A stretch of DNA of 40,030 nucleotides from assembly GCA_947627205.1 (NCBI GenBank), contig CANQVE010000018.1:1-40030 (forward strand). The letters run 5' to 3'. This document shows, piece by piece, positions 1,060-31,954 of this stretch. Within the stretch, counting starts at the first letter, position 1, and every line of letters begins with the position of its first letter. Below the pieces are notes generated by a model. That model ran no database searches. It saw only the letters and a list, made by a program, of their open reading frames with translations, and had not been told where the DNA came from. The DNA is from an uncultured Clostridia bacterium. GTDB lineage: Bacteria; Bacillota; Clostridia; Oscillospirales; Ruminococcaceae. Both the position numbers and the translations under genes were made by a program.

Positions 1060-2232
1060 TCAAAGGTATTTCTTCAGCGCTTCCGCCTTGTCGGTCTTTT
1101 CCCAAGCAACGCCCAAGTCCTCGCGTCCCATGTGACCATAAGCCGCTACCTGACGGTATTGGGGCTTTCTAAGGTCGAGAGTTTCGATTATTGCGGCAGG
1201 TCTAAAGTCAAATTCCTTTACAAGCGCCTCGGCAATCTTTTCGTCCGGTATCTTGCCCGTTCCGAAAGTATCGACCATTACCGAAACGGGATTTGCAACG
1301 CCTATTGCATAAGCAAGCTGAATTTCAGCTCTCTCCGCAAGTCCCGCGGCAACTATGTTCTTTGCAGTATAACGCGCCATATAAGCCGCCGAGCGGTCTA
1401 CTTTTGTCGGATCTTTTCCCGAAAACGCTCCGCCGCCGTGACGTGAATATCCGCCGTATGTATCAACGATTATCTTGCGTCCCGTAAGTCCGCTGTCGCC
1501 CATAGGACCGCCTACTACAAAGCGTCCTGTCGGGTTTACAAAGTATTTTGTGTTTTCGTCGAGAAGCTCTGCGGGAATTGTAGCCTTTATGACTTTCTCA
1601 ATAATGTCTGCTCTGATTTGTTCAAGTGTAGCGGAAGCAAGGTGCTGTGAGGATACAACGACCGTATCAACACGAACGGGCTTGTTTCCGTCGTATTCAA
1701 CGGTAACCTGCGTCTTTCCGTCGGGAAGAAGATAGGGTATCTCGCCGCTCTTGCGGACTTCGGTCAGCTTTTTGGAGAGCTTGTGAGCAAGGCTTATCGG
1801 CATGGGCATAAGCTCGGGAGTTTCCGAGCAGGCAAATCCGAACATCATTCCCTGGTCGCCCGCGCCCGTGTCGCAGGCGTTTTCTTCTCTGCCCTCAAGC
1901 GCATTGTTTACGCCCATAGCGATATCGGGCGACTGCTTGTCTATCATTGTCACAACAGCGCAGGTGTTCGCGTCAAATCCGTATTCGCTGTCGGTATAGC
2001 CTATCTTGCGTACCGTCTGCCGTGCAATTTCGGCTATATCAACATTTGCAGTTGTCGTAATTTCGCCCATAACGGAGATAATTCCCGTTGTCGTGGTAGT
2101 TTCACAAGCAACGCGCCCCATAGGATCCTGTGCTAAAATTGCGTCAAGAACTGCGTCGGAAATGTTATCGCAGATCTTGTCGGGGTGTCCCTCGGTCACA
2201 CTTTCCGAGGTGAACAGTTTTTTGAATGCCAT
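1060..2232 (-). CDS. metK: S-adenosylmethionine synthetase
   Basis: The 390-residue product is close to the usual length (about 380-400). It makes S-adenosylmethionine from methionine and ATP in the cytoplasm, releasing phosphate and diphosphate. Hallmarks are [16 protein letters not shown] at the N terminus, the [16 protein letters not shown] loop near residue 120, and the [19 protein letters not shown] segment near 265, which carries substrate and metal-binding residues. The start is supported by a TAGGAGGA ribosome binding site just upstream. Expression is very probably controlled by the SAM-I riboswitch in its leader (2335-2671) and the terminator at 2291-2317, so the enzyme is feedback-regulated by its product. 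tRNA-Leu(UAG) lies immediately downstream. Confidence 0.98.
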
Positions 2233-2317: not shown

Positions 2318-2334
2318 GTAAGATCCTCTTCACT

Positions 2335-2671
2335 CCTTATCTCTCGGCGGAATTTAACAATAACCGCCGCAGGACGTAGCACCTTGCATTCGGAAAACCA
2401 AGCATACAAAATTTGCAAATAAACTTTGCACTGTCATTATTGCTCGATACCTATGTAGGTTGCCGGGCTTAATAGGGACCAGTCCCCTTTCCGCAAACCT
2501 CAGACTGCCGATAAAGCCTCATTCGCGTCGTCAACGCACCACCGACAGCCACCAAGCCACAAAGGCTAGTCGTCGGCGCGTTTCCTAGCGCCTGAGACTT
2601 TCTCGGCAGTCTGAAAAGGCTTTATAAAACAAACTGAATTATCTGCGGAACATCAGCCGCTCTTGATAAGG
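2335..2671 (-). promoter_or_regulatory. SAM-I (S-box) riboswitch with a ~150-nt insertion in P2
   Basis: On the - strand the leader carries CTTATCAAGAGCGGCTGA, then GGGACTGGTCCC, then AAGCCCGGCAACC, then GGTGCTACGTCCTGC, all core S-box motifs. P1 is CCTTATC (2671-2665) with GATAAGG (2341-2335). A normal aptamer is about 100-130 bases; this one is about 337. The extra length lies between the CTGA of the kink-turn strand and GGGACTGG, bounded by a new stem TTCCGC (2650-2645)/GCGGAA (2494-2489) and filled by the structured element at 2501-2613. SAM binding should stabilise P1, free the terminator and switch metK off. The riboswitch identity is firm; whether the insertion still permits SAM binding is not known. 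Confidence 0.9.
2501..2613 (-). ncRNA. Structured hairpin element, copy 1 (inside metK riboswitch)
   Basis: A long imperfect hairpin closed by CAGACTGCCGA/TCGGCAGTCTG, containing further helices AAAGCCTCA/TGAGACTTT, CGC/GCG, AACGC/GCGTT, CCGAC/GTCGG and AGCC/GGCT. The second copy at 31796-31900 has the same architecture with compensatory changes in several helices and conserved internal-loop sequences (TTCCTAG, GACTTTCTC). The C-A mismatch in the second helix is a U-G pair on the - strand, which points to the - strand as the RNA. That is also the strand transcribed as the metK leader. I do not recognise the family. Confidence 0.75.
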
Positions 2672-2686
2672 CATTTTGTTATTAAC

Positions 2687-2783: not shown

Positions 2784-3092
2784 TTGATATTTTCAAATGC
2801 GTGGAAGGGGAACAAGACCTTGTATGTTCTTTCAGAGAGCCGTTGTTTGGTGCGAAACGGCAGAGCGGCAGGGAGATGACTCGCCCCCGAGCAGAACGGG
2901 CGAACGCCGCGTTTTGACTTGCAATATTGCAAAATCAAAACAAGAGGCAAATAGTCCGTTACGGGTTTCTCCCGTTAAAGAGAAGCGCGCTGTCTGGCGC
3001 GGCTGAGGCGAATTTCCGAAAGGCTTTTCGCAAATTGGAGTGGTAACACGGGTTAGTTCTCGTCCCCAAGTTTGGGCGGGGACTTTTTTATT
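2784..3092 (+). promoter_or_regulatory. Leucine T-box leader with terminator, upstream of leuA
   Basis: The leader carries the stem I signature AGAGAGCCG...GGTGCGAAACGG (about 2834-2860). Next comes the specifier context GATGACTCGCCCCCGAG, where CTC at 2880-2882 is a leucine codon, then the GTTACGGG...CCCGTTAA stem, then the T-box GAGTGGTAACACGGG (3038-3052) with TGGT to pair with an uncharged ACCA tRNA end. The terminator GTCCCC/GGGGAC (3062-3083) is followed by TTTTTT. Uncharged tRNA-Leu should stabilise the antiterminator and allow leuA transcription. The specifier was placed by pattern, not by folding. Confidence 0.9.
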
Positions 3093-3164
3093 TGTGGTGC
3101 CATATTAGACGATTTGATCATATTGACTGATAATTCTACATTTTTATGTAAAGGAGAATGTCTT

Positions 3165-4826
3165 ATGAAATTTGCAGACAAGTATCAGAAACGTTATTTT
3201 ATGCCTCCTTATCCTTGTCTTGAATGGACAAAAAAGGAGAGCATAGAAAAGCCCCCCGTATGGTGCAGCGTAGACCTGCGCGACGGAAACCAGGCGCTTA
3301 TTATTCCCATGTCGCTCGAAGAAAAACTTGAGTTTTTCAAGGTGCTTGTAGACGTTGGTTTTAAAGAAATAGAGATAGGTTTTCCTGCCGCGTCTGACAC
3401 GGAATATGAGTTCTGCCGTGCGCTTATTGAAAAGAATTTGATCCCCGATGACGTTACGGTACAGGTATTGACGCAGAGCCGAGAGCATATTATAAAGAAA
3501 ACGTTTGAGGCGCTTGAGGGCTGTAAGAATGCCATTGTCCACCTGTACAATTCTACCTCCGTCGCACAGCGCGAGCAGGTGTTCAAAAAGAGCAAGGAGG
3601 AGATAATCGAAATTGCGACGAGCGGAGCAAAGATGCTGAATGAGTACAAGGCGAAAACAAAGGGCAATTTCCGCTTTGAGTATTCTCCCGAGAGTTTTAC
3701 GGGAACAGAGCCCGAATTTGCCGCGGAAATATGCAACGCCGTTATCGACATCTGGAAGCCTACTGCCGACAACAAGGTAATAATTAACCTGCCCGTTACC
3801 GTTGCGGAAAGTATGTCGCATGTCTATGCACAGCAGATCGAATATATGTGCAAAGAACTGCACGACCGCGGGAACATTATTGTTTCGCTCCACCCGCACA
3901 ACGACCGCGGCTGTGCCGTGGCTGACACGGAATTGGGCTTGCTCGCGGGAGCGGACAGGGTAGAGGGTACGCTTTTCGGAAACGGCGAAAGAACGGGAAA
4001 TGTTGATATTATAACGCTCGCTCTCAATATGTACACTCACGGCGTTGAACCTAATCTTGATCTGACAAACCTGCCGAAGCTGACGGAAATATACGAAAGA
4101 CTTACAAGAATGAGAGTTTACGAGCGTATGCCGTACAGCGGACAGCTTGTTTTCGCGGCGTTCAGCGGTTCACATCAGGACGCAATAGCAAAGGGCATGC
4201 ACTATCGCGAAGAAAAAGATCCCGACCACTGGAACGTGCCGTATATCCCCATTGATCCCCACGACCTCGGCAGGGAATACGAGGGCGACGTTATCCGCAT
4301 AAATTCCCAGTCTGGCAAGGGCGGGATAGGCTACCTCATGGAGCAGAATTTCGGCATAGTTATGCCGAAGAAGATGAGCGAACATTTCGGCTATACCGTA
4401 AAGGGAGTTTCCGACCGCGAGCATAAAGAGCTCCACCCAGACGAGGTCCACGCTATTTTTGAAGAAACGTATGTGAATAAGCACACGAAGTTCTCCGTTC
4501 CCGAGGCGCATTATAAACAGGGTGAATGCATAACCGCCGAAGTCACCGTAGAAAAGGACGGCAAAAGAAACGTATTTACGGGGCAGGGCAACGGCAGGCT
4601 CGACGCTGTTTCAAATGCGGTAAAAGATGGTCTCGGACTTGAATACACGATAAACACCTATACCGAAAACGCAATTGAGGAAAGCTCTAAATCAAAGGCT
4701 CTCTGCATGATAGGCATAACTTTAAAGGACGGAAGAGTTTTCTGGGGCGCGGGAATTGATACGGATATAATAAATGCTTCAATTTACGCTCTCGTGTCGG
4801 CGATAAATAATTCCGATCTTGTATAA
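3165..4826 (+). CDS. leuA: 2-isopropylmalate synthase, long (yeast/actinobacterial) type
   Basis: First committed step of leucine synthesis: acetyl-CoA plus 2-oxoisovalerate gives 2-isopropylmalate. The 553-residue protein starts at ATG 3165, chosen because AAGGAG lies 8 bases upstream; an upstream in-frame ATG at 3072 falls inside the T-box terminator region. The TIM-barrel domain opens with PPVWCSVDLRDGNQAL (metal-binding Asp, catalytic Arg). It also has SLHPHNDRGCAVADTELGLLAGADRVEG with the HxH metal ligands, and GNGERTGNVDI. The C-terminal third (YVNKHTKFSVPE onward, ending in VFWGAGIDTDIINASIYALVSAIN) is the regulatory LeuA dimer domain that binds leucine. It stands alone, with a terminator after it, so leucine controls it by the T-box and probably allosterically. 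Confidence 0.96.
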   Translation: MKFADKYQKRYFMPPYPCLEWTKKESIEKPPVWCSVDLRDGNQALIIPMSLEEKLEFFKVLVDVGFKEIEIGFPAASDTEYEFCRALIEKNLIPDDVTVQVLTQSREHIIKKTFEALEGCKNAIVHLYNSTSVAQREQVFKKSKEEIIEIATSGAKMLNEYKAKTKGNFRFEYSPESFTGTEPEFAAEICNAVIDIWKPTADNKVIINLPVTVAESMSHVYAQQIEYMCKELHDRGNIIVSLHPHNDRGCAVADTELGLLAGADRVEGTLFGNGERTGNVDIITLALNMYTHGVEPNLDLTNLPKLTEIYERLTRMRVYERMPYSGQLVFAAFSGSHQDAIAKGMHYREEKDPDHWNVPYIPIDPHDLGREYEGDVIRINSQSGKGGIGYLMEQNFGIVMPKKMSEHFGYTVKGVSDREHKELHPDEVHAIFEETYVNKHTKFSVPEAHYKQGECITAEVTVEKDGKRNVFTGQGNGRLDAVSNAVKDGLGLEYTINTYTENAIEESSKSKALCMIGITLKDGRVFWGAGIDTDIINASIYALVSAINNSDLV

Positions 4827-20550: not shown

Positions 20551-21293
20551 GACTGTTCCTCGTCCGAATTGTTGTTTTTATAGCCCCAGCGGTCAATTCC
20601 CGCTCTCCTCATTGCCCCGAAAATGCGTTCTTTAATTCCTCGGTCGTTATGTTCAAGCTCCCGCAGAAACTCTTTTGTCCATTGACGTTTTGTGGTTTTG
20701 TCGGCGGGACATTTGCTCTTGACGATTTCGAGCGCGTTTCGCTTTGCACATGACATAACGGCGCTTTCTGGCGCAAAGACGAGCGGTCTTATTACCGTAA
20801 CGCCCATTCTTGAAAGATATGAAATCGGCGCAAAACAGCCTATCCTGCCCTCGTTGAATAGGTTCATGATAAATGTTTCAATAGCGTCGTCGTTGTTGTG
20901 GGCGAGTGCAAGTTTGTTGCACCCCATTTCCTTTACCGCGTCGCATAGCGCCCCTCTGCGCATTTTCGCACATAATGAACAGGGGTTTGTTTCCTTTCTG
21001 ATGTCGAAAACTATCTCCCCTATATCGGTCTTTACTATTTTATACGGCACGGAAAGTTCACTGCAAAGTTTTTCAACTGCCGAATAATCGCACTCAACTC
21101 CGCCGAATTTCGGATCGATAGTGACGGCATATACCTCGTACTTTTTTTCATAAAAACGGCGCATTTTCGCAAGCGCGCACAAAAGCACAAGGCTGTCCTT
21201 GCCGCCAGAAACGCCTACCGCTATTTTATCTCCGTCCTCAATAAGGTCAAATTCCTGACAAGCCCTGCGGACGTATCCCAACATTTTCTGCAT
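20547..21293 (-). CDS. TtcA-family tRNA sulfurtransferase / PP-loop ATPase
   Basis: A 248-residue PP-loop ATPase. VGVSGGKDSLVLLCAL (about 28-43) is the adenylation P-loop; NPCSLCAKMRRG near 105 gives a CxxC pair; KLALAHNNDDAIETFIMNLF is the second family signature. TtcA enzymes use an iron-sulfur cluster to thiolate cytidine 32 in some tRNAs; Firmicutes also have related proteins of unproven role, so the target is inferred. A second Cys pair typical of TtcA (CxxC late in the protein) is not clearly present; a single Cys lies in KSKCPADK. It heads a leftward operon with the membrane protein and the phosphorylase. Confidence 0.82.
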   Translation of the reverse strand: MQKMLGYVRRACQEFDLIEDGDKIAVGVSGGKDSLVLLCALAKMRRFYEKKYEVYAVTIDPKFGGVECDYSAVEKLCSELSVPYKIVKTDIGEIVFDIRKETNPCSLCAKMRRGALCDAVKEMGCNKLALAHNNDDAIETFIMNLFNEGRIGCFAPISYLSRMGVTVIRPLVFAPESAVMSCAKRNALEIVKSKCPADKTTKRQWTKEFLRELEHNDRGIKERIFGAMRRAGIDRWGYKNNNSDEEQS

Positions 21294-31441: not shown

Positions 31442-31795
31442 ATGCAGGACATTTATCTTTATTTCAAGAGCATTGTCGAGCAGGACAGGTGCGCCGTTGT
31501 TATCTGCGACATGAACGACATTATCATTTATATGAACCCCGCCGCGAAAGAGCGCTATAAAAAGCACGGCGACCTTATAGGCAAGAGCATTATGGACTGC
31601 CACAACGAGCGTTCCTGCCAAAAGATACGAGAAGTAGTCGAATGGTTTAAACAGAGCGCGGAAAACAACATTATGTTTACCTATCACAACCCCAAAGAAA
31701 ACAAAGATGTTTACATGATAGCGCTTCGCGATGACAATAAAAAGCTGATAGGTTATTACGAAAAGCACGAATACAGAACGCCCGAAATCGAATAA
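31442..31795 (+). CDS. Single-domain PAS protein
   Basis: A 117-residue protein made of one PAS fold: AVVICDMNDIIIYMNPAAKE, then LIGKSIMDCHNERSCQKIRE, then IALRDDNKKLIGYYEKHEYR. The DCHNERS segment resembles the PAS domain of DUF438-type and some heme- or redox-sensing proteins, where the His or Cys may bind a ligand; that is inference. There is no output domain, so it probably signals by partner binding. AAGGAG is 6 bases before the ATG, and it is translated from the polA operon. The structured element at 31796-31900 starts at the base after its stop codon. Confidence 0.85.
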   Translation: MQDIYLYFKSIVEQDRCAVVICDMNDIIIYMNPAAKERYKKHGDLIGKSIMDCHNERSCQKIREVVEWFKQSAENNIMFTYHNPKENKDVYMIALRDDNKKLIGYYEKHEYRTPEIE

Positions 31796-31900
31796 CAGAC
31801 TGTAGATAAAGCCCCATCTACGTTGTCAGCGTAACTGCGGCAGGCACAAAGCCTAGCCGCAGCCACGCTTCCTAGTATCTGGGACTTTCTCTACAGCCTG
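31796..31900 (-). ncRNA. Structured hairpin element, copy 2 (beside mazF)
   Basis: Same architecture as 2501-2613. Outer helix CAGACTGTAGA/TCTACAGCCTG, then AAAGCCCCA/TGGGACTTT, TAC/GTA, AGCGT/ACGCT, CTGCGGC/GCCGCAG and AGGC/GCCT. The TAG/CTA, TAC/GTA, AGCGT/ACGCT and CCC/GGG pairs replace different but complementary bases in copy 1. The A-C mismatch in the outer helix and the C-A mismatch in the second become G-U and U-G on the - strand, which argues that the RNA is leftward. On that strand it lies 3' of mazF, beyond the mazF terminator. Confidence 0.75.
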
Positions 31901-31928
31901 AAGCAGGACTTTTTATACAGTATGAGCG

Positions 31929-31954
31929 AATAATAAGCCCCCGCCGAAGCGAGG
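31929..31954 (-). terminator. Terminator after mazF
   Basis: On the - strand CCCTCGC-TTCG-GCGGGGG forms a tight tetraloop hairpin followed by CTTATTATT. Confidence 0.75.

Follow-up and report, generated by a model that had tools for sequence, protein, structure and literature searches.

The two imperfect hairpins found in the analysed stretch of 40,030 nucleotides from an uncultured Clostridia bacterium (contig CANQVE010000018.1; hereafter the window) are copies of a short mobile element of ca. 129 bp that comprises a leader of around 24 nt and a hairpin of 105 nt and carries no transposase gene. All parts of the reading taken jointly, we consider it probable that this element is a small non-autonomous MITE that is moved in trans by an IS1182-family transposase, targets hairpins, and needs its own fold for its propagation. 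The ends, copy number, target duplications and empty sites described below, as well as a sister-species transposon with similar ends and a doubled palindrome, were read directly from sequence.

The hairpin core of copy 1 is located at 2501..2613 (minus strand, 113 nt; 111.4 bits with our covariance model R1) and that of copy 2 at 31796..31900 (minus strand, 105 nt; 122.3 bits), with the additional 8 nt of copy 1 residing in the upper part of the hairpin. Hairpins had been predicted at exactly these positions and are real, given that for each of the four combinations of copy and strand, 200 shuffles yielded no equally good fold. For both copies, the minus strand is the better-folding one (-72.7 and -71.6 kcal/mol, z -8.1 and -10.5, for copies 1 and 2, compared to z -7.8 and -7.6 on the plus strand). 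Between the two copies, 10 of the 37 predicted pairs are altered on both sides, in line with the proposed compensatory changes. While the predicted span fits the core, the element as such is longer because it also includes a leader of 23-24 nt that forms its left terminal inverted repeat and is found at 2614..2636 (minus strand, degenerate; CAGTTTGTTTTATAAAGCCTTTT) and at 31901..31924 (minus strand; CATACTGTATAAAAAGTCCTGCTT). We count this leader as part of the element since the target duplication of copy 2 lies outside of it, with a left copy at 31787..31795 (ATCGAATAA; neither copy has a strand) that shares eight of nine letters with the right copy repeated in the other flank at 31925..31933 (AGCGAATAA). 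The stop codon of the open reading frame at 31442-31795 falls within the left duplication. The leader of copy 2 matches the end consensus in 17 of 18 letters and that of copy 1 in 11 of 18, below the threshold for leaders, and a search for a direct duplication in the flanks of copy 1 found none.

That the family had not been recognised agrees with Rfam 15, in which scanning the window (including copy 2) at gathering scores returned only two tRNAs and a search around copy 1 with E-values up to 10 gave nothing relevant to the hairpin. Viral relatives of the element were likewise unmatched at gathering score, as was one of them in an E-value search. The listed titles and abstracts of open-licence articles in PubMed Central contained no description of the element.

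The idea of a family with just two copies proved wrong. After BLAST had revealed further copies in the genome, the covariance model (R1), for which we used nine copies, detected 36 full-length copies in the 2.25-Mb source assembly (G000) together with three reduced or degenerate matches. Within the genus, matches with an E-value of 0.01 or better occur in 39 of 43 genomes (all but G015, G027, G036 and G042). The original prediction had named the lack of further copies anywhere as an outcome that would speak against it, and the search of the genome and its relatives with the covariance model instead gave many. In a sample of the family, matches at E 1e-4 were found in two of 148 genomes, which both belong to the genus of the source genome (one of 123 genera), and in a sample of the order two of 245 genomes match at E 0.001, namely the source genome and G320 from another genus. 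An exact motif match to named records identified five metagenome assemblies, i.e., the uncultured Clostridia bacteria Lapin-019 bin13, Lapin-005 bin94 and Lapin-033 bin23, whose isolate names suggest rabbit origin, and the Oscillospiraceae bacteria HAN072 and HAN073. BLAST searches of plasmids and phages did not find the element. For further comparisons, we combined the 36 copies of the source genome with 78 of 127 matches to a set of 114 copies, leaving out opposite-strand matches to the palindrome, those truncated at a contig end, and those seen in two loci.

Exactly 105 nt long are 70 of these 114 copies, which align to each other without gaps and were used to analyse covariation (65 distinct sequences; the other 44 copies were not counted). 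From the base, the core consists of 11 bp, a G-A mismatch, 9 bp, a GA/GA loop, 3 bp, a 2x3 loop, 1 bp, a second GA/GA loop, and an upper stem that contains a bulged U and is capped by a UUUGU loop, and all of these loop features are conserved. Across the 65 distinct copies and 42 pairs, 97.4% of 2730 cells hold standard pairs and 34 of the 42 pairs show double changes, with 394 doubly changed cells compared to 102 in shuffles. The observed covariation was not reached by any of 500 shuffles, which take no account of kinship, and pairing drops to 27-44% when the partners are slid against each other. Even among nine representatives of less than 75% identity, 27 of 42 pairs show two or more Watson-Crick types. 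A leftward polarity had been proposed from G-U pairs and is upheld by the larger set, where the orientation of each copy was fixed by its asymmetric loops: Read on the minus strand of the window, G-U cells are more numerous than A-C cells (135 vs 24), also among the nine representatives (22 vs 4). It is thus strongly supported that this is a structured family whose fold was retained through compensatory changes on one strand while the sequence changed.

Covariation without selection could arise if template switching, which is known to correct the arms of palindromes in bacteria, had rewritten one arm of this near-palindrome from the other. Such a process would erase mismatched internal loops. 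Instead, their columns rank with the best conserved ones of the alignment, the loops are more alike than the stems within all five sets of copies, and the same loops recur with other stems in viral contigs. It also predicts equal numbers of G-U and A-C cells, unlike the excess of G-U that we observed. Because mismatches are kept and G-U is in excess, we regard a mutational artefact as very improbable.

How long this constraint may last is illustrated by the copies in genome G009, which differ from each other at ca. 31% of stem positions and have mostly lost their leader and CAG/CTG ends while the fold is intact, with 95.5% of cells paired. This is more pairing than decaying relics should hold, a point against our preferred reading of the element, and these copies argue for a lasting constraint on the fold.

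Long copies carry extra arms. Among the 114 copies, 30 measure at least 123 nt, and their additional arm is found only in the 5' loop slot (six copies), only on the 3' side (nine), on both sides (13), or elsewhere (two). At one site common to three genomes, G000 has the arm (134 nt) and the other two lack it (105 nt), indicating that arms come or go in place. We considered whether the arms of type GTTATCCGC...GCGGATAAC are independent inserted mini-palindromes and rejected this because eight of the nine loci where they were found lie within copies of the element, of which they hence are parts.

Several lines of evidence identify the element as mobile. Its terminal inverted repeats are formed by the leader and the 3' arm of the hairpin (CAGNYTGTATAWAAAGYC), and the leader was detected in 61 of 112 copies (51 lacked it at the threshold used). 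We looked for direct target duplications with a cut-off score of 6 in 112 of 113 non-redundant copies and found them in 40, compared to a mean of 1.5 and a maximum of 5 in 50 shuffles; the other 72 had none at this threshold. Instead of the fixed length of 9 bp that a first reading of few copies had suggested, the duplications show two size ranges, with 23 of 6-11 bp and 14 of at least 16 bp that score 13 or more (range 16-29 bp; 13 of the 14 measure 20-29 bp). Judged by a simple arm measure, for which there is no separate null, 12 of these 14 long duplications are palindromic, and many of the palindromic ones resemble terminators. Inverted repeats across the insertion were seen in 12 cases at score 9 (0.3 expected), in part in copies that also have duplications.

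Comparisons between genomes revealed sites with and without the element. Out of 27 loci found for the site of copy 2, we chose 15 and read nine, of which L130, L131, L132 and L135 are empty in close alignment while L133, L134 and L136 also lack the insertion. At another locus (L114), the terminator ATCCGCTCTCTTATTTTGAGAGCGGAT flanks the element on both sides in G031 and is present only once in G000, G041 and G040. These duplications and empty sites rule out an RNA gene family without mobility. The element hence displays all four hallmarks of a MITE, being short, multicopy and devoid of a transposase, with terminal inverted repeats, target duplications, and empty sites. In the original prediction, identity with a MITE had been listed as a finding that would overturn it, and with these hallmarks and a plausible IS1182-family partner this has largely come true. 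The strand-specific covariation is untouched by MITE status, and "structured RNA or structured single-stranded DNA" therefore still describes what is conserved.

Matches to the end motif in the source genome are paired as well as unpaired. The unpaired ones could have marked a larger transposon with the same ends but led to other short repeats, and among the open reading frames listed there we recognised no transposase by eye. Similarly, contig breaks at end motifs in relatives turned out to fall within the element or within a second repeat. This second repeat (L157, L158 and L170) has the same ends (CAGACTGTATATAAAGCCTAATCAGAGTTGTATGG...) with other contents, often lies beside terminator-like hairpins, and is probably another MITE of the same transposase. 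We further noted elements of ca. 45 bp that are flanked by the same end motif (L159 and L162) and, at L165 (G000:C20, about 20567-20886), three tandem repeats spaced by 152 bp that contain an end-like CAGACTGTAAACAAAA.

A plausible partner was found among transposases with the PF13751 domain, which have matches in 12 of the 43 genomes of the genus (11 above the cut-off). The same search gave no match in G000, a draft assembly that may lack repeats, so that the partner would be either absent from this genome or unassembled. At L219 in a sister species (G034), the ends CAGTCTGTATATAAACCCC and CAGCTTGTCCAAAAACCCC lie between two copies of a 34-bp palindrome, and at L217 in G026 the ends CAGCCTGTCGAAAAAGTC and CAGTCTGTCGAAAAACGG lie between two copies of a 21-bp palindrome. 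The proteins of L219 and L217 belong to the IS1182 family according to NF033551 (379 and 325 bits, cut-off 270). One end of L219 is identical to the compared end motifs over 15 nt and the other is less alike. The two ends of the partner transposon match those of the element only in part. Two others of the four long PF13751 loci differ in that L216 has no such ends and L218 has an end on one side only. For an element derived from the IS1182 family, we thus have similar ends and palindromic targets, though not a transposase in the same genome.

The proposed mechanism is that an IS1182-family transposase would act on the ends of the element in trans and select hairpin-forming DNA, possibly as a cruciform, with terminators among its targets. 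Insertion may then either duplicate the target stem-loop or occur in or near its loop with a short duplication. In the model proposed for IS1272 by Wan et al. 2017 (PMC5678879), attack on a cruciform can replace a stem-loop, duplicate it, or duplicate its loop, and terminator hairpins have been described as targets that suffer partial deletion rather than duplication by Furi et al. 2016 (PMC4923244). The copies of our element fit the duplication outcomes of this model.

The likeliest reason why the fold has been kept is that a folded single strand of RNA or DNA would be needed for the element's own propagation, a role that we prefer because insertions have no preferred orientation relative to host genes. 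With neighbouring genes called by a codon-score script, both neighbours have the same strand as the element in 29 cases and the opposite one in 29, with 22 divergent and 20 convergent arrangements besides eight incomplete and five overlapping ones. The lack of orientation bias disfavours a host role via co-transcription and in general speaks against the view that each hairpin serves the host at its locus, e.g., at transcript 3' ends, and that mobility merely spread these hairpins. A host-function RNA would explain the covariation with its strand bias and the well-paired G009 copies. It would also agree with two orthologous cores, L102 and L122, that are identical over 105 nt between flanks of 91-93% identity, but gene conversion between copies could equally cause this identity, and one of three orthologous copies in a riboswitch (G041, see below) has partly lost an arm. 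Overall, we consider such a host function unlikely.

Another option is that the fold is a single-stranded DNA site that a strand-specific recombinase cuts and joins, like integron attC sites or the ends of IS200/IS605 elements. Integron attC sites are imperfect hairpins with fixed unpaired bases in which shape is conserved over sequence and one strand is active. The fixed geometry of our element with unpaired bases, sequence-free stems and one favoured strand shares these traits, and unrelated viral contigs hold copies without IS1182-type ends. The recent copies differ, however, by target duplications and IS1182-type ends, which the enzymes of attC sites or IS200/IS605 elements are not known to leave. 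Nor is there a replication-strand bias, with positive GC skew along the strand of the element in 19 of 50 cases (p 0.12). A recombination site of this kind thus seems improbable to us, even more so than a host function, and we retain the IS1182-mobilised MITE as our preferred reading. Within contigs, the orientations of copies are weakly concordant (50 of 75 pairs in five genomes, p 0.009), a post hoc observation with partial lists for three genomes that was first noticed in G000 (contigs C1, C3, C12 and C13) and G009 (contig C16). GC skew does not account for this concordance, which counts against our preferred reading.

Compared to known systems, the element resembles the IS1272/IS1182 family in its hairpin or terminator targets and the stem-loop or loop duplication model, and IS1182-family transposons of the genus have ends similar to its own. 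It differs in the lack of a transposase and in its duplications, given that IS1272 reportedly replaces the hairpin it targets or deletes part of it (PMC5678879 and PMC4923244). The BOX, RUP and SPRITE repeats of pneumococcus are likewise small, interspersed, and strongly structured at the level of predicted RNA, and the optional modules of BOX resemble the extra arms of our element. The relevant part of that account mentions no compensatory changes and no clear target duplications (PMC3049150), whereas our element carries its arms in fixed slots of one hairpin and has clear duplications. ERIC and QMITE2 are MITEs of intergenic regions that would fold into stable hairpins when transcribed, with duplications of 7-9 bp for QMITE2, and we set them beside the element by description alone; hairpin-duplicating insertion is not described for them in the corresponding part of the source (PMC10969869). 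As a MITE, our element is of a known kind with unusually well documented insertion into hairpin targets, and the new part is the strand-specific covarying core that is common to unrelated genomes. It joins two topics that are usually studied separately, i.e., insertion enzymes that choose hairpins and strand-specific covarying structure inside a mobile element. With its many duplicated-terminator insertions and empty sites, the element allows a direct test of the model of stem-loop and loop duplication that was proposed for IS1272.

Related cores were found in another genus and in contigs of a viral collection. Genome G320 has five matches (E 4e-9 to 3e-7), and the three that we read (L283-L285) keep the lower loop motif with a different apex and lie within a larger palindromic repeat with other ends. 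They form 15-16 of 29 lower pairs in the end-anchored register and 22 of 29 after a two-base slide, so that their outer stem is shifted. A motif scan of the viral collection identified the contigs L286, L287 and L288, some of which may be host DNA. L286 and L288 carry the same 104-nt element, on L286 in a contig with a tRNA cluster and a DNA methylase, and L287 holds three copies that adjoin phage portal and scaffold genes. Of the lower pairs, L286 forms 27 of 29 and the copies of L287 form 28-29 of 29. Compared with the window copy, nine pairs (L286) and 14 pairs (one L287 copy) differ on both sides and still pair. The core hence occurs in an IS1182-type MITE of the genus, in two lineages of phage-like contigs that share its geometry with different stems, and, with its outer stem shifted, in a composite repeat of the other genus. 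Somewhat against our own expectation, we entertain the possibility that the core is a new class of nucleic acid defined by shape, with one fixed geometry of helices and G-A loops, and free in sequence, which would occur in unrelated mobile and viral genomes, be read as a polar folded single strand, and switch between vehicles. If the core class is common to phages, this would constitute a structured nucleic acid missing from Rfam.

Further viral scans added no certain members. The exact apex pattern had no match in the viral contigs. A relaxed scan gave 25 stretches. Two of these, L286 and L288, fold like the element, and L311 just passed the pairing threshold but has a G-A at the N-N position. 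A second one gave 54 stretches with only L286, L287 and L288 passing, a further relaxed motif scan gave zero, and another gave two, with L312 resembling coding sequence and L313 being uncertain. On the phage-like contig of L313 (about 2540-2720), whose membership in the family is uncertain, a long hairpin with a similar loop motif lies after a terminase gene that looks truncated and before DUF2924 and a serine recombinase.

Copy 1 exemplifies the entry of a self-folding insert into a regulatory RNA. It interrupts the P2 of a SAM-I riboswitch (RF00162) at 2334..2672 (minus strand; 30.6 bits, E 1.1e-4) that scores below the gathering threshold of 44.4 and spans the copy as a 179-nt insertion. 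The downstream gene (ORF 1060-2232, minus strand) is presumably metK, which we assume from the riboswitch and a sequence motif. In minus-strand letters, copy 1 is flanked by TTCCGCA upstream (2644..2650) and TGCGGAA downstream (2489..2495), an inverted repeat of score 7 from which we infer insertion into the loop of a P2 side hairpin; where relatives lack the element, a short hairpin occupies this position. Among 30 leaders of the downstream gene that we read, three have the element in the P2 side hairpin (G000, G041 and G031), with two copies in tandem in G031 and part of one arm lost in G041. More generally, SAM-I riboswitches of the genus (window 2334-2672 and L186-L215) have an extra P2 side hairpin of very variable length, from the short GCCGAAAGGC type up to several hundred nt (G033 and G039). 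We also note a T-box leader (RF00230) at 2793-3070 on the plus strand, upstream of the open reading frame at 3072-4826, which reaches 88 bits compared to a gathering score of 93.
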